A DNA stretch of 32,065 nt, taken from contig CALFUP010000151.1 in NCBI GenBank assembly GCA_937929875.1, positions 1-32,065 of the forward strand. Direction: 5' to 3'. Source of the stretch: an uncultured Cocleimonas sp. Its GTDB lineage: Bacteria; Pseudomonadota; Gammaproteobacteria; Thiotrichales; Thiotrichaceae. Of the stretch, positions 742-29,115 are shown one piece after another. Each line of letters begins with the position of its first letter. The stretch's first letter is position 1. The translations under genes were made by a program, and so were the position numbers. The notes beneath the pieces were generated by a model. The model did no database searches, was not told the origin of the DNA, and saw only the letters and a program-made list of their open reading frames with translations.

Positions 742-764
742 AAAAAGTGGGGGGGTGTACTTTT
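742..764 (+). repeat. G-tract dispersed repeat copy
   Basis: AAAAAGTGGGGGGGTGTACTTTT. Confidence 0.9.
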
Positions 765-805
765 ATTCTTAAAAAACAACTTTTATCGAGTTAATATGCA
801 TTTGA

Positions 806-1654
806 TTAGTCTGATAATGATTCCCCCAGCTTTAAAGATTGATCTACTTCAAGTTTATGACTTAATTTTGGTGCACCATTTTTAAAAATCAAAATAACTG
901 TCGAGCCCATATTAAAGCGTCCCATTTCCTTGCCTTTTTCTAGGTTAATATCTTTGCCAGAGTAGTTTTTAGTAGTGACAGTCTCACCTTTAGGGGGTGT
1001 TACCAAGCCGTGCCATATAGTTTCAATTGCTGCTACGTTAATGGCCCCCACAAGAATCATTGCCATCGGTCCATATTCTGTATCAAAGGTGGCAATAACA
1101 CGCTCATTTCTAGCAAAAATACCTTTAACAGTATTTACTGTGTGCTTAGCTACACTAAATAACCTTCCTGGCACATGAGTCTGTTCTTTTAGTGTTCCAG
1201 AGCAGGGCATATGTATGCGATGATAATCACGTGGTGATAGGTATATAGTGATGAATTGCCCATTTCTGTACATATCACTGCGATTGGAGTTATTTCCGAG
1301 AAGTTTATCTAAACTGTAATTAATTCCCTTCGCTTGGAGTATTAATCCGTTTTCAATATTCCCAAATTGACTAATAGTACCATCTACAGGGCTTATTATT
1401 TTTGAATCAGATAAAGGTCTTAAATCAGGTTTTAACTCGCGAGTGAAAAATTCATTAAAAGTACTGTAACTCTTAGGATCAGGATTAACCGCTTCATCTA
1501 AATCAACTTTAAACGCATTGCTGAATATCTGAATTGCTTTCGGTACTAGAGGTGATTTAATACGAGTCAGTTTAAAAACTGATCGAGAAATAAGGTGATG
1601 CGGTAAAGCATATAACGCGCCAGATTTAATATAGTCAGTCAGTGATGCATTCAT
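806..1654 (-). CDS. psd: Phosphatidylserine decarboxylase proenzyme
   Basis: ORF track; STFNEFFTRELKPDLRP, SPVDGTISQFG, YLSPRDYHRIHMPCSG and a C-terminal MGST self-cleavage motif. Confidence 0.95.
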   Translation of the reverse strand: MNASLTDYIKSGALYALPHHLISRSVFKLTRIKSPLVPKAIQIFSNAFKVDLDEAVNPDPKSYSTFNEFFTRELKPDLRPLSDSKIISPVDGTISQFGNIENGLILQAKGINYSLDKLLGNNSNRSDMYRNGQFITIYLSPRDYHRIHMPCSGTLKEQTHVPGRLFSVAKHTVNTVKGIFARNERVIATFDTEYGPMAMILVGAINVAAIETIWHGLVTPPKGETVTTKNYSGKDINLEKGKEMGRFNMGSTVILIFKNGAPKLSHKLEVDQSLKLGESLSD

Positions 1655-1727
1655 TTAGATGATTGTTTCAATTTATAGTTAAAAAATAGGATAATACGCG
1701 ATTAATCAAATAGAAACACTAGTAGAG

Positions 1728-2666
1728 ATGCGTATCATGAGTCAACCAGAAACAAAAAATATTGATACTCAAGAATTGAGTAACGAACTCTCAACAATGA
1801 TAGATTTTATGCGTTGGGGTGCTAGTCAGTTTGTAAAAGCTGAATTGAGTTATTCCCATGGTATGTCTTCTCCTTTAGATGAATCAGTTTATTTGGTATT
1901 ACGTTCTCTTCAGTTACCTGTAGATACACCGGATGTATATTGGACATCTAAATTAACAAATATTGAAAAACAGACTGTTTTAAAAACTTTATTTACACGC
2001 ATTAACAAAAGAATTCCTGCTGCATATATTATGCAAGAAGGTTGGTTCGCAGGTTTACAATTTTATATAGACGAAAGGGTTTTAGTTCCGCGCTCGCCTA
2101 TCGCCGAATTAGTTGAAACACAATTTACTCCTTGGGTGAATCCTGATGAGGTAGAGGCGGTATTAGACTTATGTACTGGAAGTGGGTGCATTGGAATAGC
2201 ATGCGCTTATGCTTTCCCAATGGCTAAGGTCGACTTAGCCGACATATCTCAAGATGCATTGGATGTAGCAGCAATTAATGTTGATAAACACGACGCTCAT
2301 AAACAAGTATCAATTATTAAATCAGATTTGTTCAAGGGTTTATCAGGAAAGCAATACGATATCATTGTTAGTAACCCACCTTATGTTGATGCAGAAGATA
2401 TCGCAGGTATGTCTGACGAATTTCAACATGAGCCTGAATTGGGGCTTAGCTCTGGTGATGATGGTCTTGAATGCACTAGAAAAATATTGAGTGACGCAGC
2501 TACGTATTTAGCAGATGATGGAATATTAGTCCTCGAAGTAGGAAACAGCCAATATGCACTTGCTGAAGAATATCCAGACTTACTTTTTGAGTGGGTTGAT
2601 TTTGAGAGAGGTGGTGATGGTGTATTTGTTATTTCTAAAGAACAGCTGGTGAAAAAATTAAGTTAA
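1728..2666 (+). CDS. prmB: 50S ribosomal protein L3 N5-glutamine methyltransferase
   Basis: VLDLCTGSGCIGIA, VSNPPYVD motif, PrmB-type N-terminus (MRWGASQFVKAELSYSHG). Confidence 0.93.
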   Translation: MRIMSQPETKNIDTQELSNELSTMIDFMRWGASQFVKAELSYSHGMSSPLDESVYLVLRSLQLPVDTPDVYWTSKLTNIEKQTVLKTLFTRINKRIPAAYIMQEGWFAGLQFYIDERVLVPRSPIAELVETQFTPWVNPDEVEAVLDLCTGSGCIGIACAYAFPMAKVDLADISQDALDVAAINVDKHDAHKQVSIIKSDLFKGLSGKQYDIIVSNPPYVDAEDIAGMSDEFQHEPELGLSSGDDGLECTRKILSDAATYLADDGILVLEVGNSQYALAEEYPDLLFEWVDFERGGDGVFVISKEQLVKKLS

Positions 2667-2826
2667 ATTCAAATTAGGCTGAACTATTTGACTGTATTTA
2701 TATTCTTATCATACGTATGTTATTATAGTTAGTTCAGTATTCATTTAGCTTTAATGCTTTATTATTCTTAAAAAGTATTAGTATTCTTTAAAGATTAAAA
2801 TATCTGGTAAATATAAAGGGGAATCA

Positions 2827-3741
2827 GTGTTAGCTCAAAGAACACTTCAAAGTATTGTTAAAACAGTTGGTATCGGCTTGCATTCCGGCAAACGCGTTAA
2901 TTTAACGCTAAGACCTGCGCCACCTAATACTGGGATAATTTTTACTCGAGTTGATTTGGTTCCAGCGGTAGAAATTAAAGCGATGCCAAAGAGCGTAGGC
3001 GAGACTGTGCTTAGTACGACTCTAATCAAAGATGGGGTAAAGGTTTCTACCATTGAACATCTTATGTCAGCGTTAGCAGGTTTAGGTATCGATAATATTT
3101 ATGTTGATTTGAATGCTGCTGAAATTCCTATTATGGACGGAAGTGCAGCTCCTTTCATCTTTTTAATTCAATCTGCTGGTATTGAAACTCAAGCCTCAGC
3201 TAAAAAACTAGTAAGAATTAAATCACCTATTCGTTTTGAAAATCAAGCGGGATGGGCAGAACTAACACCTTATGAAGGTTTTAAAGTTTCATTTGAAATA
3301 GACTTCAATCACCCTGCAGTGAATGATACTAAACAAGTGTTAGAGCATGATTTATCAATAGAGTCATACAATAGCGAAATTAGCCGAGCAAGAACATTTG
3401 GCTTTATGACAGATGTTGAAAAGTTACGTTCTATGAATTTAGGTTTAGGGGGTAATTTTGGTAATGCAGTAGTACTGGATGAATACAAGGTTTTGAATAA
3501 AGATGGCCTACGTTACGATGATGAATTCGTCAAACACAAAATGCTCGATGCTATCGGTGACTTGTATGTCTTGGGCTATGGTATTATTGGTGCCTACCAT
3601 GGTCATAAATCTGGTCATGCAATAAATAACTTATTACTGTTAGAGTTATTGAAAAACGAAAATTCATGGGAAGTGGTTACTCTTACTTCTGACGAAAAAG
3701 CGCCACAGCTTTATGTAGGAAATCATGCTCAACTTGCTTGA
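2827..3741 (+). CDS. lpxC: UDP-3-O-acyl-N-acetylglucosamine deacetylase
   Basis: GTG start; [49 protein letters not shown] and [11 protein letters not shown] motifs. Confidence 0.96.
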
Positions 3742-3853
3742 GATTTGATGAAAATCGTCAGCTATACAGATAATGAAACTAGTTGGGTATGAATAAAAAT
3801 TGAACATGATTTCTATCAAGTACTAACAAAGTTAAAAATTGCTTGAGAATAAA

Positions 3854-5257
3854 TTAATTTCTTCGCCAAATTGTTTTAGGCCCAGTATCTTCAAGTGAAA
3901 TACCTTGAGCTTGAAGTTGATCTCTAATCTCATCTGCTCTAGCCCAATCTTTAGCAGCTTTAGCATCGATACGTTGCTGAACAAGTTCATCGATCGCATT
4001 ATTATCCATACCATCATGAATCCCTTCGCCTTTAAACCACGTCTCTACATCACTTTCTAGTAGGCCAAGTAGTGTTACTAGACGAAGTAAAATATTACCC
4101 AGTTTTACTGCGCCTTCCATCTTTTCATCATCGATTTTACGGTTAATTTCTTTGCTTATATCAAACAATACAGATAATGCTTCTGGAGTGTTGAAGTCAT
4201 CATTCATCGCACCTAAGAAGCGGGTTTCGTAAACAGAATCGACTTCAGCATCATCAATATTTAATGAAAGACTACGAATGGATGTATAAAGTCTATCTAA
4301 TGCTGATTTTGCTGAATCTAATTGTTCAGTGCTGTAATTTAAAGGGCTACGGTATTGACTTGTTAACATGAAGTAACGAACAACCTCAGCATTATAATCT
4401 TTCAATACATCTCTAATAGTAAAGAAATTACCTAATGATTTAGACATCTTTTCTTCGTCTATACGAATAAAACCATTGTGCATCCAATAGTTAGCGAATT
4501 TTTCTCCAGTACATGCCTCAGACTGAGCAATCTCATTTTCATGATGAGGGAATTGCAAGTCGTGTCCGCCACCATGAATATCAAAGTTATTACCTAGTAA
4601 TTGAGTCGACATCGCAGAACATTCTATATGCCATCCAGGGCGACCTTTACCCCATGGAGAATCCCAAGAAGGCTCATCTGCTTTAGCTACTTTCCATAAG
4701 ACAAAATCGAGAGGATCATCTTTATCTGTGTTGACCGCAACACGCTCTCCAGATCTTAGATCATCAGGGTTTCTACCAGAAAGCTTGCCGTACTCTGTAA
4801 ACTTTGAAACATCATAATACACATCACTCGCACCGTCTTTTATAGTGCCACGATAGGCGTAGCCAGTATCAATCAACTTAGTAATCATCGCTAAAATTGC
4901 TTCAATGTTTTCAGTAGCCTTTGGCTCTGCTGTAGGCTCTAACACGCCTAAAGCTCTTTCATCTTCGTGCATAGCATCAATAAAACGCTCGGTTAATGCC
5001 CCAAAGTCCTCGCCGTTTTCATTAGCTCTCTGAATGATTTTATCGTCTATATCGGTAATGTTACGTACATAATTTACGTCATATCCCGTTGCGGTCAAAT
5101 AACGATAAACCACATCAAAAGCAACCATTACCCGAGCGTGTCCTAAGTGGCAGTAGTCATAAACAGTCATTCCACAGACATACATGTTTACTTTGTTTTT
5201 TACTATAGGGGTAAATTTTTCTTTTTGGTTCGTTAGGCTGTTGTAAATCTTAAGCAT
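3854..5257 (-). CDS. cysS: Cysteine--tRNA ligase
   Basis: CGMTVYDYCHLGHARVMVAFD, GRPGWHIECSAMS, HGGGHDLQFPHHENE, KMSKSLGNF. Confidence 0.97.
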   Translation of the reverse strand: MLKIYNSLTNQKEKFTPIVKNKVNMYVCGMTVYDYCHLGHARVMVAFDVVYRYLTATGYDVNYVRNITDIDDKIIQRANENGEDFGALTERFIDAMHEDERALGVLEPTAEPKATENIEAILAMITKLIDTGYAYRGTIKDGASDVYYDVSKFTEYGKLSGRNPDDLRSGERVAVNTDKDDPLDFVLWKVAKADEPSWDSPWGKGRPGWHIECSAMSTQLLGNNFDIHGGGHDLQFPHHENEIAQSEACTGEKFANYWMHNGFIRIDEEKMSKSLGNFFTIRDVLKDYNAEVVRYFMLTSQYRSPLNYSTEQLDSAKSALDRLYTSIRSLSLNIDDAEVDSVYETRFLGAMNDDFNTPEALSVLFDISKEINRKIDDEKMEGAVKLGNILLRLVTLLGLLESDVETWFKGEGIHDGMDNNAIDELVQQRIDAKAAKDWARADEIRDQLQAQGISLEDTGPKTIWRRN

Positions 5258-5386
5258 TTTAGTGTGATTCTTATGGTTTTATTAAAAGGTTGTTTAAGCC
5301 AGAAAGCTTAATTTTATAGTCGCTTTCTTAAAGCTCGCAATGGTAGCAGAAGTCCAATAATTCCGCTATTATTCGGGACTTTGTAA

Positions 5387-6097
5387 TTGTTAAAAGGGTG
5401 TATTGAAGTGACTCGTATTTTAAAACCAAACCAATTCTTAATTGCTTTATTCTCTTTTTTGTTTTTAATCACAGGCTGTAATGCAACTGAGCCGACAAAA
5501 GTAGAAGAAGCCACAAAAACAGAAGCTGCAGAAACGACTGCAGTTAAAACTGAACAACCTACTGATAAAAAAGACTCTGGAGATAAAATGTCTAATCCAC
5601 AAATTAAATTAGAAACCAGCAAAGGCACAATGATGATTGAGCTGGATGCAGAAAAAGCACCAAACTCGTCTGCAAACTTTGTTGCATATGTAAAAGATGG
5701 CTTTTACGATGGTGTTATCTTTCATCGTGTAATCCCTAATTTCATGGTGCAGGGTGGTGGTATGAATCCTGATATGAGCGAGAAAGGCAATAAGAAAGCA
5801 CCGATTAAAAATGAAGCAAACAATGGTTTAAAAAATGATCGCGGCACACTTGCTATGGCACGTACTAACGATCCACATTCTGCATCTTCACAATTTTTCA
5901 TTAACTTGAAAGACAACGACTTCCTTAACCATACAAGTGAATCTCCAGCAGGTTGGGGTTACGCGGTATTTGGAAAAGTAACTGATGGGCTTGAAACAAT
6001 TGATGAAATTGCGAAAGTACAAACAGGTAACGTTAGCGGTCATGGTGATGTTCCACTTGAAGCAGTAACAATCATAAAAGCTTCAGTTGTAGAGTAA
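5387..6097 (+). CDS. Lipoprotein-type cyclophilin (peptidyl-prolyl cis-trans isomerase)
   Basis: LITGC lipobox at N-terminus, low-complexity linker, then cyclophilin domain (GTMMIELDAEKAPNS, FHRVIPNFMVQGGG, SSQFFINLKDNDFLNH). Confidence 0.9.
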   Translation: MLKGCIEVTRILKPNQFLIALFSFLFLITGCNATEPTKVEEATKTEAAETTAVKTEQPTDKKDSGDKMSNPQIKLETSKGTMMIELDAEKAPNSSANFVAYVKDGFYDGVIFHRVIPNFMVQGGGMNPDMSEKGNKKAPIKNEANNGLKNDRGTLAMARTNDPHSASSQFFINLKDNDFLNHTSESPAGWGYAVFGKVTDGLETIDEIAKVQTGNVSGHGDVPLEAVTIIKASVVE

Positions 6098-6112
6098 TTT
6101 TAAGTATCTACT

Positions 6113-6141
6113 AGCGCCTCCTCTAATGTTAAGGAGGCGCT
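6113..6141. other. Intercistronic hairpin between cyclophilin gene and lpxH
   Basis: AGCGCCTCC-11 nt-GGAGGCGCT perfect 9-bp stem, not followed by a T-tract. Confidence 0.6.
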
Positions 6142-6158
6142 GATTAGCAAAAACCATC

Positions 6159-6917
6159 ATGAGTAAAGCAAGTAGTACCAATACTAAAAATAAAACCTAC
6201 TTCATATCTGATCTACATCTCGATCCATCTCAGCCCCACTTATTCAAACTCTTTCATGATTTCGTTGAAAAAATTCGCGAAGATGCCGAAACGCTTTATA
6301 TACTCGGTGATTTATTTGAATTTTGGATTGGGGATGACATCATTGATCTACCTATCGGAAAACCTTATTTACCTATTATTAAACAGCTTAGGTCTTTATC
6401 TGATAAAGGTGTAAAACTATATTTTATTCAAGGAAACAGGGATTTTCTAATAGGTAAAAAATTCATGAAAAGGATAGGTGGAACCTTATTGCCTGATCAT
6501 CAAGTTATTGATTTATACGGTAACAAAATTTTGATTATGCATGGTGATACTCTATGCACTGATGACAAAGGTTACCAGTTGATGCGAAAGATTTTTCGCT
6601 TATGGATAGTCCAAAAAATATATCTTTCTATGAGTCCGCTGAAACGGAGTCAAAAAGCTGGACAAGTACGTAATAAAACCAAACAAAGTACAAAACAAAA
6701 ATCTGAAATGATTATGGATGTGAATCAATTAGCGGTAGAAAAGAGTATAAAAAGTGGGGGGGTGTCATTTTTAATTCATGGACATACCCATCGACCAGCT
6801 GAGCATGATATTTTAATCAATAATGAAGTTAAAAAGAGAATTGTATTAGGTGACTGGGGTGAGGAGTGGAGCTATTTAGAATGGAATGCAGAGGATAAGT
6901 ACACGCTTAACTTTTAG
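6159..6917 (+). CDS. lpxH: UDP-2,3-diacylglucosamine diphosphatase
   Basis: FISDLHLD, ILGDLFEFWIGDD, FIQGNRDFLIGKKF, MHGDTLCTDDKGYQ, LIHGHTHRPAEH metallophosphatase motifs. Confidence 0.95.
   Translation: MSKASSTNTKNKTYFISDLHLDPSQPHLFKLFHDFVEKIREDAETLYILGDLFEFWIGDDIIDLPIGKPYLPIIKQLRSLSDKGVKLYFIQGNRDFLIGKKFMKRIGGTLLPDHQVIDLYGNKILIMHGDTLCTDDKGYQLMRKIFRLWIVQKIYLSMSPLKRSQKAGQVRNKTKQSTKQKSEMIMDVNQLAVEKSIKSGGVSFLIHGHTHRPAEHDILINNEVKKRIVLGDWGEEWSYLEWNAEDKYTLNF
6749..6770 (+). repeat. G-tract dispersed repeat copy inside lpxH
   Basis: AAAAAGTGGGGGGGTGTCATTT. Confidence 0.92.
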
Positions 6918-7218
6918 GGAATATCTTGATAAATTTCTTAGTTGAACTCTTTTCAGAAGCTTCACTAAAATTAAATCCACAAGTATCTTTTACTAAATTA
7001 TGCTCTTCAGGGCTACGTGGAAATTTACGACAATTTGGAGGACGAACCGTATAAATAGAACAATATTCCTTTTGCTCATTATCCTCATCGGTCGTTGTTT
7101 TTAAAAATACACAGCGAAATGGCAATCTACAGCATGCACCGCAGTTATTACATTCCCCAGTACGCCCTTCTTCAACAGGCAGTAAAGAGGTTAATGTACG
7201 TTTTAGTTTATTTATCAT
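6907..7218 (-). CDS. YkgJ-type cysteine-cluster (putative zinc/iron-chelating) protein
   Basis: CNNCGACCRLPFRCVFL and CSIYTVRPPNCRKFPRSP cysteine pattern. Confidence 0.8.
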   Translation of the reverse strand: MINKLKRTLTSLLPVEEGRTGECNNCGACCRLPFRCVFLKTTTDEDNEQKEYCSIYTVRPPNCRKFPRSPEEHNLVKDTCGFNFSEASEKSSTKKFIKIFPKS

Positions 7219-7313
7219 TTAAACCGCAGTGTATTATTTAGACAATTTTAAAACGGCGATTATATCGTAAATTCAATAAAACAATAAAGTACAACTAACA
7301 TTATTGATACAGC

Positions 7314-8084
7314 TTATTTGTCATAATTAACAGCTGAAATTTTCAATTTCCATGGATCAATCTTAAGAATAGCAACAGGTGTACCTCCTTTCGTATCAAG
7401 AACCCAAATCATATCTTTTTTGTTATTACCCGTTAGCGGGAAAAAACTATATTTTTCGATGCTTTCTTTATGTTTTGACTTGAATAGTCTTAACTCCTCT
7501 TCTTCGTTTGAAGTTAATAGTAACTGTTCAATGTTAAGACTTCTTTGCATCACCTGATCAAGATGCGTATCAAGTGGGGAAAAATATTTTGGTCGACTAC
7601 CTAGATCTGGCTCGTTATTTAAAATGACATTAAGCGTTAAACTATTTCTTTCTTTTGGATCAACGGGTAATTGCGCAACCATAAGTTTAGGTGAAGAAAA
7701 GAAGTGCTTTTTAGCTTGATGAAACCAGGAAGGTTGAGGGTAAATATTACTGACATTTGTTAAAACAAACCTATCTACACTAAAAACGGCATAGGCAGGG
7801 TGTTTTAAAAAAAGTGAATAAGCTCCAAAAACAAAAGCGATTAATTGTATTGAAAGCAATACGTTAATATCAAATGTTAGATGTTTTTTATTTTCTTTAT
7901 AGATGAAGTATACAAGCAATGGACCTAAAATAAGATCTACAAAAATAATCATCCAAGCCGTATCAAAAAATCCTCCAAGATGGACGAATGAATAGGGGAA
8001 CCAAAATAGATAGGCAAAAACTAAAAAGATAAAAATTAGCGCTTGGCTAATAATGAGATTGCGTAAGGCAATTTTTATCTTCAT
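7314..8084 (-). CDS. TfpX/TfpZ-type type IV pilin accessory membrane protein
   Basis: N-terminal TM helices with FVDLILGPLLVYFIY and YAVFSVDRFVL; paralogous to the adjacent ORF 8228..8983; downstream of a pilin gene. Confidence 0.8.
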   Translation of the reverse strand: MKIKIALRNLIISQALIFIFLVFAYLFWFPYSFVHLGGFFDTAWMIIFVDLILGPLLVYFIYKENKKHLTFDINVLLSIQLIAFVFGAYSLFLKHPAYAVFSVDRFVLTNVSNIYPQPSWFHQAKKHFFSSPKLMVAQLPVDPKERNSLTLNVILNNEPDLGSRPKYFSPLDTHLDQVMQRSLNIEQLLLTSNEEEELRLFKSKHKESIEKYSFFPLTGNNKKDMIWVLDTKGGTPVAILKIDPWKLKISAVNYDK

Positions 8085-8227
8085 CTAAAAATACTTCTCA
8101 AAACTGATTAGGAGCTTGAGACTAATTCTTTATCGAATTGTATGTCGCTTTTACAAGATAAAGGGAGTTTTTAAACTGAAGAGAAGTTTTATGTAGAGGT
8201 TTAAAGAGTCTGTAAATTAAGTACTCA

Positions 8228-8983
8228 TTAATTCTTTGATAATTCCCAAGGGTCAGTATCTATGGTTGCAATAGGTTTTGCAGATAATTTATCCAAGACG
8301 ATAATTGCATCCTTTCGGTCACTATTCAGTGGGAGAAAGACAAAATTATCAATTTCACTTTTATTGTCTTCAATGAAATCAGATATTTCATTGTTAGACA
8401 CAGCAGCATTCATGATTATTTCCTGGTCTATGCCTTTGGCTAATACTGTATCAATATGATTTTCATAAGGCTCATAATATTCAGTCCTCTGGTCTAAGTC
8501 TCTAGTTCCATTTGCGGCTGAAAATGCTATTTCATTTCTTTTTGCTACATCATCAGGCATTTTTGCAAAAGCTAGCTTTGCCGATGATAATTTGGATATT
8601 TTATATTCCTCAAAAACGGCTTTTTCAGGTAGTGCATCTCTGGCATTAACAATGGTGAACCGATCCACATTAAAGGTTACATAAACAGGGTGAACCTGAT
8701 ATAGAGCATGTGCACCATAAACTAAAGCAGCAACTTGAATAGCAGCGATAACGGATAAATCGAATTTAAGTGTTTTCTTCTTGGGTTGAAATACAACAAA
8801 AGTTAACAGTGGGCCTAAGATTAAATCAACAGTAATAATAATAGTGGCAATTTCTTTGAAATCAGAAACATTAATAAAAAGTTGTGGGAACAAGAAGAAG
8901 ACAAGGCTTCCTATCACTAAACCCACTAATAGAATACTGATTATAAGATGGATTAAAGATGCTTTTAGTTTACTTTTAAACAT
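8228..8983 (-). CDS. TfpX/TfpZ-type type IV pilin accessory membrane protein
   Basis: ITVDLILGPLLTFVVFQPKKKTLKFDLSVIAAIQ and YVTFNVDRFTIVNA shared with ORF 7314..8084. Confidence 0.82.
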   Translation of the reverse strand: MFKSKLKASLIHLIISILLVGLVIGSLVFFLFPQLFINVSDFKEIATIIITVDLILGPLLTFVVFQPKKKTLKFDLSVIAAIQVAALVYGAHALYQVHPVYVTFNVDRFTIVNARDALPEKAVFEEYKISKLSSAKLAFAKMPDDVAKRNEIAFSAANGTRDLDQRTEYYEPYENHIDTVLAKGIDQEIIMNAAVSNNEISDFIEDNKSEIDNFVFLPLNSDRKDAIIVLDKLSAKPIATIDTDPWELSKN

Positions 8984-9051
8984 ACTAATTAAGAACTTAT
9001 TTAAGGATTAGGCTATTTTAACAAATCAACATTAATCTATTATGAATACCC

Positions 9052-9082
9052 ACAAAAAACCCCCTCATAGGAGGGGGCTTTT
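9052..9082 (-). terminator. Rho-independent terminator downstream of pilin gene
   Basis: On minus strand: GCCCCCTC-ctat-GAGGGGG hairpin followed by TTTTTTGT; lies between pilin and the TfpX/Z paralogs. Confidence 0.85.
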
Positions 9083-9118
9083 GAAATCAAGTATTTGATT
9101 TTTTTAACTCATTAGCTA

Positions 9119-9652
9119 TTAACGACATGCAGCTGGTAAGTACTTAGCTATAACAGTTGTTGCAGCAGCGATACCCACCTGATTAGATGCAGTCAAAGCA
9201 GCTGCTGGCTTACAGTTCCAAGAGATAGTACCAGAGATACCAGGACCTAATGGATTAGGTGGGTTAGCATTTCCAATAGAAGGTACATATTGAAGATCTT
9301 GAGCGCCATTCGCTAGAGCAGTAATACCACCAGAAGCTGCTGCATTATTCATAGTAACTGTGACTTCACCAGCAGCACCAATAACTACATTTGCAATTTT
9401 GCTGTTACGGATGTTTGGTTGGTCAGCAAGTACTTCTGCAGCATAAGCAGCAATACCGTTTACGCCATTGTCACTGAACATATCAGCAACACCAATTTTG
9501 AAAGAACTTGCCGCTATAACGCCTTCAGATACTTTTGCACGAACCGTGTAATCCTGATAAGCAGGAAGAGCGATAGATGCTAGAATACCGATAATCGCTA
9601 CAACGATCATTAATTCGATAAGTGTAAAACCTTTTTGTAATTGCTTTTTCAT
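9119..9652 (-). CDS. pilA: Type IV major pilin-like protein
   Basis: [43 protein letters not shown] class III prepilin signal and N-terminal helix; C-terminal cysteine pair (WNCK...PAACR). Confidence 0.94.
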
Positions 9653-9803
9653 TTTTGAATCTCCAAAATTATTTTTATGATTAATACATTAATTAATGTA
9701 AGTAAGTTTATTGTTACTGTTTTTTCTTATCTTACCTGATTGATTTTACTCAATGTGGCATGAACAAAAACTTAACAGCATGAACAATGTGTTCGGATAT
9801 GTA

Positions 9804-12556: not shown

Positions 12557-12579
12557 ATAAGTAGGGGGGTGTGCTTTTT
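12557..12579 (+). repeat. G-tract dispersed repeat copy (TA variant)
   Basis: AATAAGTAGGGGGGTGTGCTTTTT, 6-G variant. Confidence 0.85.
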
Positions 12580-13797: not shown

Positions 13798-13820
13798 AAA
13801 AAAGTGGGGGGGTGTCATTT
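13798..13820 (+). repeat. G-tract dispersed repeat copy
   Basis: AAAAAAGTGGGGGGGTGTCATTT. Confidence 0.92.
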
Positions 13821-15344: not shown

Positions 15345-15417
15345 AAATGACACCCCCCACCTTTTTGATCATTAGTTTTCAGTTAATCAGGGTTTAAAAA
15401 GGTGGGGGGTGTCATTT
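15345..15417. repeat. Inverted pair of G-tract repeats (REPIN-like hairpin)
   Basis: 15345-15366 is the exact reverse complement of 15396-15417 (AAAAAGGTGGGGGGTGTCATTT), 29-nt spacer. Confidence 0.95.
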
Positions 15418-17316: not shown

Positions 17317-17340
17317 AAAAAGTGGGGGGGTGTGCTTCGA
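17317..17340 (+). repeat. G-tract dispersed repeat copy, fused to TTCGACA repeats
   Basis: AAAAAGTGGGGGGGTGTGCTTCGA. Confidence 0.9.
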
Positions 17341-17476
17341 TAGGCTCAGCAATCGGTTCGACAGGCTCAACAACCGATTCGACATTGCTCAATACGAGTC
17401 TCCGGCAAGCTCAACACGAATTATTTCGACTTTGCCCAACACGAGGCTTCGATATATTTCGACGGAACTCAGTAAT
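17335..17476. repeat. Degenerate tandem TTCGACAGGCTCAACACGA-type repeats
   Basis: About 6 units of 21-25 nt: cttcgataggctcagcaatcg, gttcgacaggctcaacaaccga, ttcgacattgctcaatacgagt, ctccggcaagctcaacacgaat, etc. Confidence 0.85.
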
Positions 17477-18456: not shown

Positions 18457-18485
18457 AAACTATCAAAAAGTAGGGGGGTGTCATT
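18457..18485 (+). repeat. G-tract dispersed repeat copy, arm 1 of 29-bp inverted pair
   Basis: AAACTATCAAAAAGTAGGGGGGTGTCATT. Confidence 0.95.
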
Positions 18486-19929: not shown

Positions 19930-19958
19930 AATGACACCCCCCTACTTTTTGATAGTTT
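19930..19958 (-). repeat. G-tract dispersed repeat copy, arm 2 of 29-bp inverted pair
   Basis: Reverse complement is AAACTATCAAAAAGTAGGGGGGTGTCATT, identical to arm 1. Confidence 0.95.
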
Positions 19959-19973
19959 CCTCTATTTCTCTCT

Positions 19974-21539: not shown

Positions 21540-21597
21540 CCTCTGTAGCTTTACGCAGAATTTAGCTATAACTAGAACTTAGCTCTAAGCAGACCAT

Positions 21598-23097
21598 TTA
21601 ACCGACCTTATCGCCAGATTCAGGATCAGACAGGTCAATCCAAATGGTCTTCAATTCTGTATATTGGTCATGCGCATGAATACCATTGTCTCGACCACCG
21701 AAGCCTGACTCTTTATAACCACCAAAGGGTGTTGACATATCACCTTCGCCGTAACAATTCACTGATACCGTTCCCGCTTTGATCGAACGTGCGGCCCTAA
21801 TGGCTTTTTTGCCGTTGGCGCTGAAGACACTCGCTGCCAAACCATAATTAGTATCGTTTGCTAGCTCCATTGCTTCATCAAATGACTTAACGGTTAACAC
21901 CGATAACACTGGACCGAATATTTCTTCTGTGACTAATTTGTCGTCTTTTTTAACATCATCATAAATGGTTGGTTCAACATAATTTCCTGAAGCTTTTCCA
22001 CCAATCAATGCTTTGTTTTTCGTTTTTAAATAGGAAGTCACTTTTTTACAATGCTCCGTATCAATCAAAGCACCCAAATGATTCGCAGGATCAAGTGGAT
22101 CGCCTGTTTTCCAATCACGTGTTCGCGCCACAATCCGTTCCATTAATGGCTCTTTTACCGCTTCATGAACAATCAAACGCGACGCGGCAGAACAGTTTTC
22201 ACCCATATTCCAAAACGCAGCATTAACGATATGTTCTGCCACTAAATCTAAGTCTTCCGCATCATCTAAAACAACACAGGGGTTTTTACCACCGCATTCC
22301 AATACGATTTTCTTTAAATTGCTATCAGCGGCATAACGTAAGAAACGACGGCCCGTTTCAGTGGAACCTGTAAAGCTGATCATATCGACATCCATGTGCA
22401 GGCCTAATGGTTCGCCGACGCTGGGGCCATCACCTGGTAACACTTGGAACACACCTCTGGGAAAGCCAACTTCCATTGCTAGTTCGGCCACACGTAAAGC
22501 CGTTAATGAAGTTTGTTCTGCGGGTTTTACAATTACAGAGTTTCCAGCCGCCAAGGCAGGTCCAATTTTCCAAGCCAACATTAATAGTGGGAAATTCCAA
22601 GGTAAGACAGCACCAACCACACCGACAGGTTCGCGCACGATCATCGCGATTGCATCATCACCCGCAGGCGCTGTTTGATCGTAAATTTTATCCGCGGCTT
22701 CTGCGTGCCACTTTATGCATTCGATAGATTCTGGAATATCAATTTCTTCGCAATCTTTAATTGGTTTGCCGCTGTCTAAGCTTTCCATCACTGCTAATTC
22801 ACGGCGGTTTCGATGGATCAATTTACACAGTTTTATCAGCATTTCTTTGCGTTCTGCCGGGTGGAGTTTTGACCAGTGACCTTGATCAAATGCTTCGCGT
22901 GCTTTTTGCACGGCAAAATCTACATCTGATTTATCACAGCTACTAATGTCACAAATATTTTCACCTGTAGCAGGGTTAATCGTTGGCATTTTTGGGCCGT
23001 TGCCTGCTCTGAACTTGCCATCTATAAAGGCAGTTCTAGGGAAATTGATATCATCTGCGATAGCTTGATATTCTTCACGACTTAATAGATCACTCAT
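21598..23097 (-). CDS. Aldehyde dehydrogenase family protein (PuuC/betaine-aldehyde-type)
   Basis: VLPWNFPLLMLAWKIGPALAAGN, SFTGSTETGRRF, LECGGKNPCVVLDDADL-type region, FWNMGENCSAASRL catalytic Cys, EEIFGPVLSV. Confidence 0.95.
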   Translation of the reverse strand: MSDLLSREEYQAIADDINFPRTAFIDGKFRAGNGPKMPTINPATGENICDISSCDKSDVDFAVQKAREAFDQGHWSKLHPAERKEMLIKLCKLIHRNRRELAVMESLDSGKPIKDCEEIDIPESIECIKWHAEAADKIYDQTAPAGDDAIAMIVREPVGVVGAVLPWNFPLLMLAWKIGPALAAGNSVIVKPAEQTSLTALRVAELAMEVGFPRGVFQVLPGDGPSVGEPLGLHMDVDMISFTGSTETGRRFLRYAADSNLKKIVLECGGKNPCVVLDDAEDLDLVAEHIVNAAFWNMGENCSAASRLIVHEAVKEPLMERIVARTRDWKTGDPLDPANHLGALIDTEHCKKVTSYLKTKNKALIGGKASGNYVEPTIYDDVKKDDKLVTEEIFGPVLSVLTVKSFDEAMELANDTNYGLAASVFSANGKKAIRAARSIKAGTVSVNCYGEGDMSTPFGGYKESGFGGRDNGIHAHDQYTELKTIWIDLSDPESGDKVG

Positions 23098-24029
23098 GAC
23101 TGTTTTCCCTTTGTATTATTTTGATTGGTTTCACTAAGAATTAAATTAATCGTTGAATTCATGGTTTTAATCACTTCTGCCAATTCACGCTTGTCATCTT
23201 TATTTAGCGGTTGAAGCGGTTTACGTGGTGGCCCGCAATCAATGCCTCGAAGAGTTAGGCCATGCTTGATACATTGCACAAACTTTCCCCCTTGTTCTAA
23301 CACTCTCATTAAGGGCAGCATTGCCGACATAATTCTGCGGCCTTTACTAAAGTCTCCTTCAATCACACAGGTTTGATAAAGTGCAATATGAGCTTCGGGT
23401 GCAAAGTTAGACCCCGCACAAACCCAAGCTTTAGCGCCCCAAGCAAAATACTCAAGCGCTTGATCGTCCATACCGCAAGCTAATGAAATATGTGTGTAAT
23501 CACGCGCTAATAAATGCAAACGATCAATATCACCCGAGCTTTCTTTGATCGCGCAGAAATTTGGATTACGTCCGAGTCTATCTAACACCTCTTCATCCAT
23601 ATTCACGCTCATTCGACCTGGATAGTTATAGAGCATTACAGGTAAATTAGCGGCGCGTTCAATAGCTAGAGCATGTAAGGCAATCTCACGTGAAGTAGGG
23701 TAGGCGTAAGGGGGGGTAGCAATGAGTAAAGCATCTGCGCCAATACGTTTGGCTTCTTCGGCATATTGAACACTGTCTTCTGTGCGAATTGCGCCCGTTC
23801 CCATAATTACGGGAACACGACCATTAATGAGGTCTTTGCCGAGTTGCATCATTTCGATGCGTTCTTGATAGGTTTCGGCGTAATATTCGCCTGTCGTTCC
23901 AGCGATAATGATGCCATGAACACCCGCGTCGACCAACAATTCAACGGCTTCAGCAAAAGCCTCTTTGTTGATGGAAAAGTCATCATGAAAAGGCGTAACT
24001 ATCGGTGTATAAATTCCTTCAAATTTCAT
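23094..24029 (-). CDS. Dihydrodipicolinate synthase (DapA)-superfamily aldolase/deaminase
   Basis: GIYTPIVTPF, IIAGTTGEYYAET, LYNYPGRMSVNM, FCAIKESSGDIDRL Schiff-base Lys. Confidence 0.92.
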   Translation of the reverse strand: MKFEGIYTPIVTPFHDDFSINKEAFAEAVELLVDAGVHGIIIAGTTGEYYAETYQERIEMMQLGKDLINGRVPVIMGTGAIRTEDSVQYAEEAKRIGADALLIATPPYAYPTSREIALHALAIERAANLPVMLYNYPGRMSVNMDEEVLDRLGRNPNFCAIKESSGDIDRLHLLARDYTHISLACGMDDQALEYFAWGAKAWVCAGSNFAPEAHIALYQTCVIEGDFSKGRRIMSAMLPLMRVLEQGGKFVQCIKHGLTLRGIDCGPPRKPLQPLNKDDKRELAEVIKTMNSTINLILSETNQNNTKGKQS

Positions 24030-24742
24030 GTTTTACTCTTTTTAATTAAATTCGCTGTGTTATAACTTTCATTATCAATGGGGAAAGGGTCGGGCCGAAC
24101 AAACTGTTCCATGCGGTTTTGGGATAATTCCCAATGCTCTAAAGTCAGCTCAACAATATCGGCTGGGGATCTTTTTTCGATAGCTTCAATCATTAAGTCG
24201 TGATGATGTTTCGCTTTACCGATCACCATCTCTTCTTTCTCATTTTTAGCCTTAAAAAACATCTGACTCATACGCGTATGATCAATCAACAAACGTTCAA
24301 GACTAGGCGTAAGGTAATTATTACCCGCCATAACACCTAACTGCTCATGAAAAGCATGGTTATGCATCGACATGTTTTCCACATCACCTTGTTTACAGGC
24401 TTGCGAAAAAGAATGTTGTATCTTTTTGATCTGAGACAGTTGTGAAGCGCTAGCATTTTCAGCAGCCAAACGCGCGACGGTTGCATACACTAAAGGCGCC
24501 GTTTGAAAGAAGTCCCTCATGCTATTGATATCCATCGAGGAGACTTTAGTGCTGCGGTTATCCTCAAGCGACAAATATCCTTCCCCTGCTAAACGCTGGA
24601 AAATCTCACGTAATGGCGTGCGCGATAATTTATATTCTTCTGCTATTAGCGTTTCATCAAGCACCGACCCTGGTTCGATATCCAAGGTTAATATTCGATG
24701 CTTAAGCGTTTCGTAGCAGTAATTTTTTTTGTTTGGTTTCAT
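24026..24742 (-). CDS. GntR family transcriptional regulator (FCD-type)
   Basis: Winged-helix LRTPLREIFQRLAGEGYLSLEDNRSTKVSS-type segment; all-helical ligand-binding C-terminal domain with HNAFHEQL. Confidence 0.9.
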   Translation of the reverse strand: MKPNKKNYCYETLKHRILTLDIEPGSVLDETLIAEEYKLSRTPLREIFQRLAGEGYLSLEDNRSTKVSSMDINSMRDFFQTAPLVYATVARLAAENASASQLSQIKKIQHSFSQACKQGDVENMSMHNHAFHEQLGVMAGNNYLTPSLERLLIDHTRMSQMFFKAKNEKEEMVIGKAKHHHDLMIEAIEKRSPADIVELTLEHWELSQNRMEQFVRPDPFPIDNESYNTANLIKKSKT

Positions 24743-24810
24743 CTAATATCAATGACTCGGGCTATTAATTAAGCTGAGGTATTCGGCTTAGAAATCAAAA
24801 ATAACACAAG

Positions 24811-24831
24811 ATGTATACAAATTGAATACAT
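24811..24831. promoter_or_regulatory. Candidate GntR operator upstream of the catabolic operon
   Basis: ATGTATACAAATTGAATACAT: palindromic TGTATACA plus ATGTAT/ATACAT inverted arms, about 70 nt upstream of the GntR start. Confidence 0.5.
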
Positions 24832-24840
24832 TTAATAATA

Positions 24841-24863
24841 AAAGAGACACCCCCTTACTTTTT
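24841..24863 (-). repeat. Degenerate G-tract repeat copy
   Basis: Reverse complement AAAAAGTAAGGGGGTGTCTCTTT. Confidence 0.75.
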
Positions 24864-24974
24864 GCCCGTTTTTTTAAAGGATTCATTTCTATAGGTGGGG
24901 TGGATTTATCGAATTATGAAAGAGCTAGTAACTGAGATATAAATTATTAGAATATCCAGAATTCGTATCGTCTA

Positions 24975-25020
24975 CAGTAGCTAGAGCGCTACTGCCAACT
25001 GATATGCATAGCAGTTGGCA
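24975..25020. other. Two adjacent intergenic hairpins
   Basis: CAGTAGC-tagagc-GCTACTG immediately followed by (overlapping) TGCCAACTG-atatgcatag-CAGTTGGCA. Confidence 0.65.
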
Positions 25021-25086
25021 TGAATGATAATTATGAGGCGCTTAATTTAATTAAGTCTAATCAAAAGATGATAGACCTCAAGGTCA

Positions 25087-26022
25087 TTACTTGCGGTTCT
25101 TCTTCCAACGTTTTTTACGTTCAGCCTTTGTTGCATTTTTTGCTTCTTCTTTTTCGCGAGCTTCAGTTTCGGCTTCTATTACTTCTTGTTCAAAATCATC
25201 AGGATTTTCCAAAGTAATGTTGCCCAGTGTTCCTAATCTAAATTCATTGATTAGGATTTTACAGGCTTTGTCCAATTCGATTTGTCCGCCCGCTCGTAAA
25301 CAACCACGTTGACGACCAATGGTCTCGATGAATTCTATTTCACTTTCTGGAACGGCATCTAATTCATAACGAGCAACGATCATTTCTGGGTAATGTTTGA
25401 TCAGCGTTTCAGCTAAGTAGAATGCCGCATCATCACTATCGAAAGCGGTGTCTTTAATGGCGCCAGTAATCGCTAAGCGGTAGCCACTGTGTCCATTATT
25501 GATATTGCCCCATAAAAGACCGGGGGTATCGAATAGCACGACATCGTCAGAGATTTTGATACGTTGTTGTTGGCGAGTGACGGCTGCTTCGTTACCAGTT
25601 TTTGCGACTGTTTTGTCTTTTAGTATATTGATAATTGTAGATTTTCCAACATTGGGAATGCCCACAATCATGGCATGAATTTCTTTATCTCTAGCGCCTT
25701 CTAAGGAGATCATTTTGCGACAAAGCGCTGCTATTTGTTTGATTTTATCGGGTTGGTCTCGCGTGACGCATAAAGTTTTTACTCCAGAATCACGCTCATA
25801 ATACGCTTGCCATTTCTCCGTTAAAACAGGGTCAGCTAGGTCACTTTTATTGAAAATCTTAATCGCAGGCTTATCTTTGCGAATGGCTTTTAGCATTGGA
25901 TTTTCACTAGAGCCTGGAATACGAGAATCTAAAACCTCGATGAGTAAATCCATTTCAGGTAGTTTTTCACGTATTTCATTACTGGCCTTGTACATATGAC
26001 CAGGAAACCATTGAATTTTCAT
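25087..26022 (-). CDS. YlqF/RbgA-type ribosome biogenesis GTPase
   Basis: IQWFPGHMYKASNEIREKLPEMDLLIEVLDSRIPGSSENP; circularly permuted G motifs (FNKSDLAD ... GIPNVGKSTIIN ... DTPGLLW). Confidence 0.92.
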   Translation of the reverse strand: MKIQWFPGHMYKASNEIREKLPEMDLLIEVLDSRIPGSSENPMLKAIRKDKPAIKIFNKSDLADPVLTEKWQAYYERDSGVKTLCVTRDQPDKIKQIAALCRKMISLEGARDKEIHAMIVGIPNVGKSTIINILKDKTVAKTGNEAAVTRQQQRIKISDDVVLFDTPGLLWGNINNGHSGYRLAITGAIKDTAFDSDDAAFYLAETLIKHYPEMIVARYELDAVPESEIEFIETIGRQRGCLRAGGQIELDKACKILINEFRLGTLGNITLENPDDFEQEVIEAETEAREKEEAKNATKAERKKRWKKNRK

Positions 26023-26300
26023 TTTGTTACCGTTATTTTTCGAAGGTTTTATTTACATTAAATCTGTATGTAACACAGATTTAATTATGACTTTATGGAT
26101 AGGTATTTGCTAGTTCGTTACATCTTATTGGCATTTATCTAGGAAATTTAAGCCTACTTGTCTCAAGATCTAAATGAAGTAAATCATATTATCATGTTTG
26201 GACACTGCCATTTGTCTAGAGTTTTTTTAGTTTAATACTAAGTTATGCTATTTTGACAAATACCATTCTTATATAACTAATAATTTTAAGAGAAAGCACA

Positions 26301-27038
26301 ATGTTTAGCGCAGTAAAAGAAGCTCTGACTAAAGAGATTGATGTCAAAGAAATTTTAAATACAGAGATTGATGTTAAAAAATTTCTAGAAATGGAAATTG
26401 AATTAACTAAACTCAAAGAAGTGTTAGCGACAGAAATTCAACTCAAAGAATTTTTAGTGCAAGAGATTGATCTAGGAAAATTGCTCTCTGATAAATCTGA
26501 TATCGATTCAAATACGAGTTTTGGCAAAGCACAAAATGATAAAAAATCAAATGAAAATGATCATATTGTCCAAAAGCAAAGAAAAGATTTACCTGCTTAT
26601 GATTATGGTTTAATTCAATCGTTGATCGACGAACATAAAGAGATCCGCTTTATATTTAATCGTGTTATGTCTTACGCGGTAGAAAAAAAATATGAGGAAG
26701 CGACTACTCAATTAGACATATTTAATAAAGAGATTCGCGACCACTATAAAAAAGCCGATAGTGAGCTTTATGCGTATCTTAAAACTTATGTCCAAATTAA
26801 ATACCCTAAGCGTGAAAAAGCATTTACTCAATTAAGCTTTGAGATGAAAAACCTTTCGATTGAGATTTTCTATATTATCAGTCAAAGTCCAAATTTACCG
26901 CTTAGCGATAAAACATACGATGGTTTTATGAAGGAATTTATTGGTTTAGGCAAATTGCTCAATGAACGAATAAATCGTGAAAGTGATTTGTTATTTAAAA
27001 TGTATGAGCAAACAAATAAAGCTAAATCAATTAGTTAG
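26301..27038 (+). CDS. Hemerythrin-like helical protein with N-terminal repeats
   Basis: IQSLIDEHKEIRFIFNRVMSYA...IFNKEIRDHYKKADSELYAYL; N-terminus carries about five EIDVKEFL-type units. Confidence 0.65.
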   Translation: MFSAVKEALTKEIDVKEILNTEIDVKKFLEMEIELTKLKEVLATEIQLKEFLVQEIDLGKLLSDKSDIDSNTSFGKAQNDKKSNENDHIVQKQRKDLPAYDYGLIQSLIDEHKEIRFIFNRVMSYAVEKKYEEATTQLDIFNKEIRDHYKKADSELYAYLKTYVQIKYPKREKAFTQLSFEMKNLSIEIFYIISQSPNLPLSDKTYDGFMKEFIGLGKLLNERINRESDLLFKMYEQTNKAKSIS

Positions 27039-27071
27039 GTTTTATTTTGGCGTTATTTTGATAGTATCTAA

Positions 27072-28292
27072 CTATAAGCGAAAACGTTGATCAAATTGCC
27101 CGAAACCGATTAGTGATTCATCACTTGCCATATCAGTTTGACCTTTAGTGTGTTTAGTCAACGCGATACATTTAAAACGCTCGCCCATTTCAGCAGGAAG
27201 ACTTAACGTTCTTATCTGTTGTGCTAATTGATATTGATAGGTCTCATCATTCGGCTGATCATTTAAAGCCTGCATAAAATATTCTTCCAGTCCTGTATTT
27301 GTTAGAAAATGCACTTGTGATGTAAAACCTGCGACTTTAAATCCGGCCTCATTTGATGCCTCAGCCACAGCCGTAAAATCAACATTTGCGGTTATATCTT
27401 GCAAGCCAGGGTACTTAAGAGGCGCTTCATTAACTAAGTGTTGGTAATGACAAATCAAAGTCCCTTTGTTTCTCTCTGGTAAATAATATTCCTTATGCGT
27501 ATAGCCATAATCAATTAATAAAACTAAGCCTGATTGTAGTGACTCACTCAAGGTTTTAAACCAGCCATTCAGATTCGGATTTAACTCAGAAGTGTAGGGT
27601 GTATCGCTTTGGATTTTTAAGTCGATTACTTGCTGTTTTAGTTTTTCATTAGCGGGTCTGAGTTGCTCGACTAAGCTCTCACTTTCTTCTGACCAGAGTA
27701 CATGATGTTCATACACATCTTGTCCATTCTGGGTGAAGACATCAACGGGCATCGCATCTAGCACTTCGTTGCCTAGAATAACGCCATTTAAATTTTGAGG
27801 TAACTGATCGATCCATTCAACGAGTTTGTAAAGGTGTGGCGCAAAATCTTTAATTGTTTGCTGCTGGCGATGAATTAAATCAGGACTTAGATCAAGGATG
27901 TAATAGCGTTTAGGCAATTGGTCTAATTGCTCCAATTCAAGCAATAGGTCAGAAGCCATTTTCCCTGAACCCGCACCAAGCTCTAAAACGCAAGCTTGAT
28001 TATGACACCCCCCCACTTTATGCAGTATTTTGGCGCATTGTTTAGCAATGCATTTTGAAAATAATGATGATATTTCTGGGGCAGTGGTAAAGTCCCCTTG
28101 TTCCCCAATTTTATGCATACCCGCAACGTAATAACCCAGTTCTGGTTGATACAAGGCCATTTCCATATAACGTCTAAATGTAATGGTATTGACGTTAGAG
28201 TTTTCTATCTCAGCTCGAATAGCATTAACCAGTTTCTTACTATGGCTTAAGGCATCAGCTGAAGGTTCTGGTAAACTTTGAGAATGATTCAT
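27072..28292 (-). CDS. MidA-type class I SAM-dependent methyltransferase (DUF185/NDUFAF7-like)
   Basis: ITFRRYMEMALYQPELGYY, FTTAPEISSLFSKCIA, VLELGAGSGKMASDLL, LGNEVLDAMPVDVF, LIDYGYTHKEYY. Confidence 0.93.
   Translation of the reverse strand: MNHSQSLPEPSADALSHSKKLVNAIRAEIENSNVNTITFRRYMEMALYQPELGYYVAGMHKIGEQGDFTTAPEISSLFSKCIAKQCAKILHKVGGCHNQACVLELGAGSGKMASDLLLELEQLDQLPKRYYILDLSPDLIHRQQQTIKDFAPHLYKLVEWIDQLPQNLNGVILGNEVLDAMPVDVFTQNGQDVYEHHVLWSEESESLVEQLRPANEKLKQQVIDLKIQSDTPYTSELNPNLNGWFKTLSESLQSGLVLLIDYGYTHKEYYLPERNKGTLICHYQHLVNEAPLKYPGLQDITANVDFTAVAEASNEAGFKVAGFTSQVHFLTNTGLEEYFMQALNDQPNDETYQYQLAQQIRTLSLPAEMGERFKCIALTKHTKGQTDMASDESLIGFGQFDQRFRL
28002..28019 (-). repeat. G-tract dispersed repeat copy inside midA-type gene
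   Basis: Reverse complement AAAGTGGGGGGGTGTCAT, 18 nt identical to the consensus core. Confidence 0.88.
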
Positions 28293-28306
28293 AAGAATGG
28301 AAGTAT

Positions 28307-29062
28307 ATGCAAAAGTTAACAGGTAAAGTAGCCTTAGTCACAGGTGCAGCTAGAAGAATTGGCGCAACGACAGTTAGGATGTTGCATCAGCATGGGGCAA
28401 CCGTTGTTATTCATTACCGGAATTCAGAAAAGGATGCTGACAAGCTTTGTGCTGAATTAAATAAGCTTCGTTCTGACTCTTGTTATATTCAACAAGCTGA
28501 ACTAGATGAAATAGCTAGTTTAGAAAAGATGATTGAAGACGTAGTCACTAAAGTAGGGCGTTTGGATATATTGATTAATAATGCCTCTAGCTTTTTCCCT
28601 ACTAAGGTAGGCGAAATTAAAGAAGCAGATTGGGACAATTTGTTTTCAAGTAATCTCAAAGCGCCATTGTTTTTATCACAGGCAGCCGCTCCATATTTAG
28701 AAAAGAGCCAAGGTTGTATTATCAATATGGTCGATATACATGCAGAACGCCCGTTGGCAGAGCACCCAGTATATTGCGCAGCAAAAGCGGGTTTATTGAT
28801 GTTAACTAAGTCACTAGCTAAAGAGTTAGGCCCACACGTTCGTGTTAATGGTGTGTCGCCGGGTGCCATATTATGGCCAGAAACAGACGGTGAAGGAGCA
28901 GAAGTCACTTTAGAGCATCAAGCCCTATTAGATAAAACGAGTTTAAAGCGAGAAGGCTCACCAGATGATATTGCCAAAGCAATTTTGTTTTTAATCTGTA
29001 ATGCACCCTATATTACTGGGCATATTATTCCTGTCGATGGAGGTCGGTTACTGAATCAATAG
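28307..29062 (+). CDS. Pteridine reductase-like SDR family protein
   Basis: KVALVTGAARRIGATTVRMLHQHGATVVIHYRNS, LINNASSFFPT, YCAAKAGLLMLTKSLAKEL, RVNGVSPGAILWPE. Confidence 0.9.
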   Translation: MQKLTGKVALVTGAARRIGATTVRMLHQHGATVVIHYRNSEKDADKLCAELNKLRSDSCYIQQAELDEIASLEKMIEDVVTKVGRLDILINNASSFFPTKVGEIKEADWDNLFSSNLKAPLFLSQAAAPYLEKSQGCIINMVDIHAERPLAEHPVYCAAKAGLLMLTKSLAKELGPHVRVNGVSPGAILWPETDGEGAEVTLEHQALLDKTSLKREGSPDDIAKAILFLICNAPYITGHIIPVDGGRLLNQ

Positions 29063-29094
29063 ATTTTTAAATGCTGATTGTCTAAGAAATACGC

Positions 29095-29115
29095 AAAAAG
29101 TGTAGGGGTGTCCTT
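29095..29115 (+). repeat. Degenerate G-tract repeat copy, fused to TTCGACAAGCTCAG repeats
   Basis: AAAAAGTGTAGGGGTGTCCTT. Confidence 0.75.

Follow-up and report, generated by a model that had tools for sequence, protein, structure and literature searches.

Across the 32,065-nt stretch analysed here (the window; contig CALFUP010000151.1 of an uncultured Cocleimonas sp., a marine sulfur bacterium), a short G-tract sequence recurs in both orientations, which raises the question of what this repeat is and how it came to be dispersed. A preliminary description had listed 12 copies and weighed two explanations: a REP/REPIN family mobilized by a RAYT transposase, and a sequence resembling a DNA uptake signal. 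All 12 copies are present, as a search with AGTRGGGGGGTGTCA allowing up to three mismatches returned exactly 12 sites, whereas shuffled sequence averaged 0.43 and never exceeded 2. One listed position, 18457, was wrong by about 8 bases (the A-run starts near 18465); the reported sub-variants GTG+G7, GTA+G6 and GGTG+G6 are real. The copies are given below with the type IV pilin gene of the window, whose link to the motif is circumstantial only.

746..760, plus strand: motif copy AGTGGGGGGGTGTAC, intergenic, 3′ of the gene at 806-1654(-)
6753..6767, plus strand: motif copy in an lpxH-like gene (6159-6917), in frame, K-S-G-G-V-S
9119..9652, minus strand: type IV pilin gene, Pilin and N_methyl domains
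12560..12574, plus strand: motif copy AGTAGGGGGGTGTGC, between convergent genes
13803..13817, plus strand: motif copy AGTGGGGGGGTGTCA, intergenic
15348..15362, minus strand: AGGTGGGGGGTGTCA copy, minus half of an inverted pair with 15400..15414
15400..15414, plus strand: AGGTGGGGGGTGTCA copy, plus half of the inverted pair with 15348..15362
17321..17335, plus strand: motif copy AGTGGGGGGGTGTGC, after an EF-P-like gene
18469..18483, plus strand: motif copy AGTAGGGGGGTGTCA, intergenic
19932..19946, minus strand: motif copy AGTAGGGGGGTGTCA, intergenic
24845..24859, minus strand: degenerate motif copy AGTAAGGGGGTGTCT, intergenic
28003..28017, minus strand: motif copy in a Methyltransf_28 gene (27072-28292), in frame, K-V-G-G-C-H
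29099..29113, plus strand: degenerate motif copy AGTGTAGGGGTGTCC, then an TTCGACAAGCTCAG repeat

A TTCGA..GCTCA repeat begins directly 3′ of the copy at 17321..17335. The known RNA families in the window are rRNA and tRNA only, and a known RNA family was rejected as an identity for the motif.

A phased unit of high abundance

The order of elements first described (A-tract, GTG, GTA or GGTG, G-tract, TGTCA and T-tract) stands, but the unit is longer than thought, because it includes a further A-tract some 10 bp upstream. The whole unit of about 30 bp thus consists of an A-tract, then, 10 bp on (one helical turn), an A-run with AGTRGGGGGGTG, and finally a T-rich tail. Genome-wide counting bore out its abundance, with 373 exact matches across its own 3.25 Mb genome (87% complete) and 0 for the reversed control, and a search made with no prior pattern returned the motif as the strongest k-mer signal in 397 kb of the genome. 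The core AAGTAGGGGGGTG is also found in relatives (721 copies in G003, 777 in G008, 453 in G004, 232 in G009 and 74 in G007), with 0 in 51 genomes from the family's other genera. Perfect copies greatly exceed those with a single mismatch (91:9 in G000 and 169:35 in G003, compared with nearly 0 for random sequence). The motif occurs about 0.1-0.2 times per kb, and distances of less than 1 kb between copies are rarer than expected at random. Viral contigs held two stray matches only, and a virus-borne repeat was rejected.

Intergenic positions account for 93 of 101 copies, the remainder being coding, and inverted pairs occur alongside solo copies. Density is highest between convergent genes (4.0 per kb, compared with 1.9 for tandem and 0.7 for divergent spacing), and the hairpins formed by plus/minus pairs have an A-run on one side and a T-run on the other, as is seen 3′ of cysS; both observations would suit a transcription terminator or other 3′-end element, or a site bound by a global regulator of transcription. 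However, the majority of copies stand alone and lack a hairpin, hundreds of near-invariant copies are unlike regulator sites, and orientation does not track gene direction (22 same, 30 opposite), with the chromosomal polarity described below holding for either gene direction. We consider this account very improbable.

Dialects and the history of individual sites

Related species carry differing dialects of the motif, which follow the phylogeny of an FtsK tree. That of G002 and G010 (dialect 2) is AGGGGGGATGGGTA, with 362 and 442 copies of GGGGGGATGGGTA; other dialects have TGTAC (G007), TGAC or TGTC (G003 and G008) and TGGC (G001 and G011). The copy in lpxH aligns codon for codon across relatives with 0 indels, the codons in three species being AAA AGT GGG GGG GTG TCA, GTA AGT AGG GGG GTG TCA and AAA AAG GGG GGG ATG GGT, of which the third is the dialect of that species itself. 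Dialect variants sit on the same lpxH codons in G003, G008 and G002. The copy at this one site therefore arose through substitution, without indels. The methyltransferase copy sits in a loop that holds dialect 2 in G002 and G010; because the length of this loop varies, it gives no information on insertion versus mutation.

Comparison of G003 with G008 revealed an exact core in both genomes at 21 of 24 alignable sites, with flanks about 76% identical, and at the 23 sites with no more than one core change the core was 99.3% identical, compared with 75-78% for spacer and flanks. The possibility raised at the outset, that orthologous loci carry the motif as an ancestral part of ordinary sequence, is thus right only in part: many sites are old and shared, but conservation is limited to the motif itself, which is therefore not ordinary sequence. 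A comparison of gene-end site sharing between dialects had too few genes (4 versus 29; p = 0.14), and the in-gene part of this test is biased because the loci were fetched through motif-bearing genes of the window. Synteny between the window and the named Thiotrichaceae loci was too poor for comparison.

These data bear directly on a non-autonomous REP/REPIN-type repeat spread by RAYT or another single-strand (HUH) transposase. Intergenic bias, inverted pairs and a GTAG inside the dialect-1 unit all suit such an element, and lagging-strand targeting by an HUH transposase would account for chromosomal polarity, replication-oriented insertion being a known property of IS200/IS605 transposases. 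Yet PF01797 (Y1_Tnp) had 0 matches in the 87% complete own genome, whereas E. coli and four other controls were positive; by inspection, the consensus of the solo unit is not self-complementary, so that hairpins come only from inverted pairs; the lpxH copy is free of indels, and the same codons hold differing dialects; and almost all alignable G003/G008 sites are shared, with the core conserved far more than the flanks. The REP/RAYT half of the preliminary pair of explanations is thereby largely refuted, and we consider a transposase-borne origin of this kind very improbable.

Orientation toward dif

Solo intergenic copies are predominantly oriented toward dif (56:7 in G003 and 24:4 in G008), and the orientation of the motif reverses at the dif-like site. 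Intergenic copies point to dif from both sides, more weakly to its left in G003 (13:7). The bias is independent of the direction of neighbouring genes, reaching 15:1 even between genes that point away from dif, which argues against gene co-orientation as its source. Plain strand composition was likewise rejected, since other intergenic G-runs are much less polar (153:116, compared with 55:9 for the motif; p = 1e-5). Within contigs of the motif's own genome, adjacent solo copies agree in orientation 37:10, and along contig C1 of G003 polarity rises from a weak level near dnaA to a stronger one farther off. No polarity was found for in-gene copies (5:5 in G003), and no clear polarity in the dialect-2 genomes (14:8 and 6:8), whose contigs are short; the correlation with GC skew, measured in sampled stretches, was not significant.

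Such a pattern could mark a chromosome-maintenance signal of the KOPS, AIMS or Chi kind, from whose orientation a non-FtsK protein (a translocase, loader or recombinase) would read the direction of dif. The gene-independent bias, the flip at dif, the excess over other G-runs and the concordance of adjacent copies support this idea, and weakening near dnaA is what a segregation signal might show. FtsK itself is a poor candidate reader: its KOPS-reading gamma recognition region, which closely resembles FtsK gamma in PDB 2ve8/2ve9, is identical in 12 of 12 genus members, across dialects and in non-carriers, and canonical KOPS (GGGNAGGG) is present separately and fully polar (12:0). Because the gamma region is constant while the dialects vary and canonical KOPS exists in its own right, FtsK would not explain the polarity. 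E. coli Chi shows no polarity here (6:9), and the length and intergenic bias of the motif also argue against it. The unpolarized in-gene copies and the dialect-2 genomes weigh against a polar maintenance signal more generally, and neither KOPS nor Chi resembles a 30-bp unit that has lineage dialects and is nearly absent from sister species. We regard this explanation as unlikely, although with an appreciable chance of being correct.

A candidate self-recognition signal and its known counterparts

The reading that we favour, and hold to be somewhat more probable than not, is that the motif is a candidate genome-wide DNA-uptake-type self-recognition signal of Thiotrichaceae. The uptake-signal half of the preliminary pair fits most of what could be put to the test: the excess of exact copies, a mostly non-coding distribution with some coding copies, inverted pairs, dialects, phased AT tracts and a substitution origin, with dif polarity as the discordant feature. 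Dialects, the phased upstream A-tract and strong replication-direction polarity were absent from that earlier reading. Absence of orientation bias describes the known USS and DUS (PMC1626085; PMC2346458) and is not part of the definition of uptake.

Under an uptake model, a putative pilus or outer-membrane DNA receptor would bind the core, with the phased A-tracts aiding DNA bending for entry, and copies would be driven to fixation by preferential uptake and subsequent homologous recombination. Were receptor specificity to drift, the same process could rewrite existing sites. ComEC is found in 11 of 12 genus members, carriers and non-carriers alike, the latter including G005 and G006, whose sampled DNA holds no motif. 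As to polarity, our preferred account, although its support is weak, is that the orientation of the motif influences the choice of strand for uptake or for integration at replication forks, the outcome thus being biased by replication direction. The inverted pairs probably serve as transcription terminators too. More tentatively, one signal could combine a dialect self-tag for transformation with a replication-oriented mark, strand choice being coupled to fork direction, or else be a new non-FtsK polar signal that evolves dialects.

According to a passage in PMC1939737, specific uptake sequences are known from two bacterial families only, Pasteurellaceae and Neisseriaceae. If our reading is true, Thiotrichaceae would supply a further, apparently unrelated case outside both, with a dif-directed orientation that has been reported for no uptake sequence. 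With several dialects in one genus and a gene in which different dialects sit on the same codons, the molecular-drive model would become testable by direct comparison. The dif orientation, for its part, opens either of two ideas to direct testing: that transformation is coupled to the direction of replication, or that the chromosome has a second polar signal.

Like KOPS, the motif is G-rich, dif-oriented and flips at dif; unlike KOPS, it spans about 30 bp rather than 8, varies in dialect while FtsK gamma is constant, coexists with canonical KOPS and has unpolarized in-gene copies. With REP/REPIN it shares short length, abundance, intergenic position and some inverted pairs, but the genome yielded no Y1 transposase, the unit is hairpin-free, and the sole testable site points to substitution. 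The USS of Pasteurellaceae has a core (AAGTGCGGT or ACAAGCGGT) plus AT-rich segments, and the resemblance extends to a core with AT tracts about one helical turn apart, an excess of exact copies over single mismatches (described as puzzling and as common to USS and DUS), mutational rather than insertional origin, subclade variants, non-coding preference and inverted pairs (PMC1626085). The motif differs from the USS in its core, with a G6-G7 run and one A-tract 5′ of it, in strong dif orientation and in a copy density about 5-10 times lower (0.1-0.2 per kb, compared with roughly 1 for USS and DUS). It is longer than the DUS of Neisseriaceae, has flanking A-tracts and is polarized along the chromosome; like the DUS, it forms several dialects congruent with phylogeny in a compact lineage (PMC3630211), is conserved above its flanks (PMC2397512) and occurs in inverted pairs, which in the DUS act as terminators.

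Abundance and architecture of the motif

The preliminary description had listed 12 copies of a dispersed G-tract repeat in the window, and a search with AGTRGGGGGGTGTCA allowing up to three mismatches recovered every one of them and no others, against 0.43 expected in shuffled sequence. The abundance extends genome-wide: the own genome (G000; 3.25 Mb in 328 contigs, 87% complete) holds 373 exact copies, whereas a reversed control pattern gave 0. A k-mer ranking with no pattern given in advance, run on 397 kb of this genome, put pieces of the motif at the top of the over-represented 8- to 12-mers. Among named records, its nearest matches are metagenome-assembled genomes of Thiotrichaceae. Exact copies far outnumber those with a single mismatch (91:9 in G000 and 169:35 in the congener G003), against next to none in Markov-random sequence; such an excess is an anomaly common to USS and DUS (PMC1626085).

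Alignment of 109 sites anchored on GGGGGTGT revised the length of about 22 nt, as an upstream A-tract extends the unit. In the own genome, about ten bases past this A-tract comes a second A-run, which leads up to GTRGGGGGGTGT, and after that come C/G, A/C and a stretch rich in T. G003 and G008 share the layout, with the A-tract at an equal distance, an SCCY-like spacer and AAGTAGGGGGGTG followed by mostly A or T and C. Spaced ten bases apart in this way, the A-tracts would be expected to promote DNA bending.

Despite ORFs covering 87% of the sequence, 93 of 101 own-genome copies are intergenic, and density peaks between convergent genes. Close pairs are almost always inverted in genomes carrying dialect 1. 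On contig C1 of G003, sites or pairs lie within 1 kb of one another less often than at random (6% versus 13%), and overall spacing variation is no different from random. Minus/plus inverted pairs on this contig recur at a fixed 41-base spacing, about four helical turns, in 5 of 11 close pairs (for example 66,982/67,023 and 790,635/790,676); plus/minus pairs lie 25–34 bases apart.

A second degenerate repeat (TTCGAC..GCTCA..) starts directly 3′ of 11 of 97 own-genome copies (further examples at loci L031, L039, L043 and L044), and two proteins of about 250 aa, neither matching a Pfam family, adjoin the pilin gene; their positions in the window are:

17337-17400, TTCGAC..GCTCA.. repeat
29114-29180, TTCGAC..GCTCA.. 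repeat
7314-8084, minus strand, ~250-aa protein
8228-8983, minus strand, ~250-aa protein

Origin by substitution at lpxH and dialects across the genus

Two genes were compared among relatives because window copies fall inside them. The copy in the lpxH-like gene is in frame, and relatives align across it codon by codon with no indels.

Codons at the motif in the lpxH-like gene
G000: AAA AGT GGG GGG GTG TCA
G003: GTA AGT AGG GGG GTG TCA
G008: ATA AGT AGG GGG GTG ACA
G002: AAA AAG GGG GGG ATG GGT (the motif found across G002's own genome)

One set of codons thus hosts more than one dialect. In G007, G005 and G001, the codon alignment showed equal length and no motif at that spot; G004 was left out as uninformative, its sequence departing from the alignment there. 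The motif at lpxH thus arose by substitution. The Methyltransf_28 gene carries dialect 1 (G000, G003, G007 and G008) and dialect 2 (G002 and G010) in the same loop, but since the loop varies in length it does not tell whether the motif there was inserted or arose by substitution.

Counts of the core AAGTAGGGGGGTG are 721 in G003, 777 in G008, 453 in G004, 232 in G009 and 74 in G007, which prefers TGTACTTTT; the remaining genus members have at most two copies, and 51 sampled genomes from other genera of the family have 0. In G002 and G010, GGGGGGATGGGTA takes the place of this core (362 and 442 copies), with the same upstream A-tracts. G001 and G011 have a few copies, ending in TGGC, and no motif turned up in the 51 kb of G005 and 31 kb of G006 inspected. 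Dialects cluster by clade on the FtsK protein tree, some inner forks of which are weak. Just downstream of cysS, the motif occurs in both dialects, as a hairpin-forming inverted pair with an A-run and a T-run in G003 (L072) and G008 (L089) and as a single dialect-2 copy in G002 (L154); G000 has no motif 3′ of cysS.

Sites are conserved between G003 and G008: of the 24 G003 sites that the aligned blocks cover, 21 have an exact core in the two genomes, 2 differ by one base and 1 is lost. Over the 23 sites whose core has changed by one base at most, a choice that partly selects for the core figure, identity is 99.3% for the core, 90% for the A-tract and 75–78% for spacer and flanks.

Orientation toward dif

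Sequences resembling dif were located at G003:C2:116,880 and G008:C4:21,981, and the G-rich strand of the motif points toward them from both sides. Solo intergenic copies point toward rather than away from dif at 56:7 in G003 (contig C2 only) and 24:4 in G008, a bias that persists between genes of either direction. Unlike these, coding copies on contig C2 show no bias (5:5, small numbers), and other intergenic G-runs are far less polar (153:116 for runs of 3–5 G versus 55:9 for the motif; Fisher p = 1e-5). On G003 C1, the two orientations are nearly balanced around dnaA (969 kb) and the bias is greater farther off (trend p = 0.02, one contig, after several ways of looking). Neighbouring solo copies agree 37:10 in the own genome; no polarity is clear in the dialect-2 genomes, whose contigs are short (14:8 and 6:8). 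This polarity keeps alive a rival reading, that of a dif-oriented chromosome-maintenance signal, which we nevertheless consider rather unlikely.

FtsK itself is an improbable reader of the motif. Its gamma recognition region, close to the FtsK gamma domain in PDB 2ve8/2ve9, stays the same whatever the dialect and also in non-carriers, and the canonical GGGNAGGG is separately present in the same DNA with 12:0 polarity.

Comparison with uptake sequences

We favour, with modest confidence, a DNA-uptake-type self-recognition signal as the most likely reading. Such a signal would act through a putative receptor and preferential uptake, and might spread by drive. ComEC is present in 11 of 12 genus members, some of them without the motif. 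A search of the open-access literature yielded no paper describing uptake sequences in Thiotrichaceae, which does not prove their absence. The uptake-type reading is preferred because the features of the motif fit the published profile of uptake sequences, from which it differs in density and orientation.
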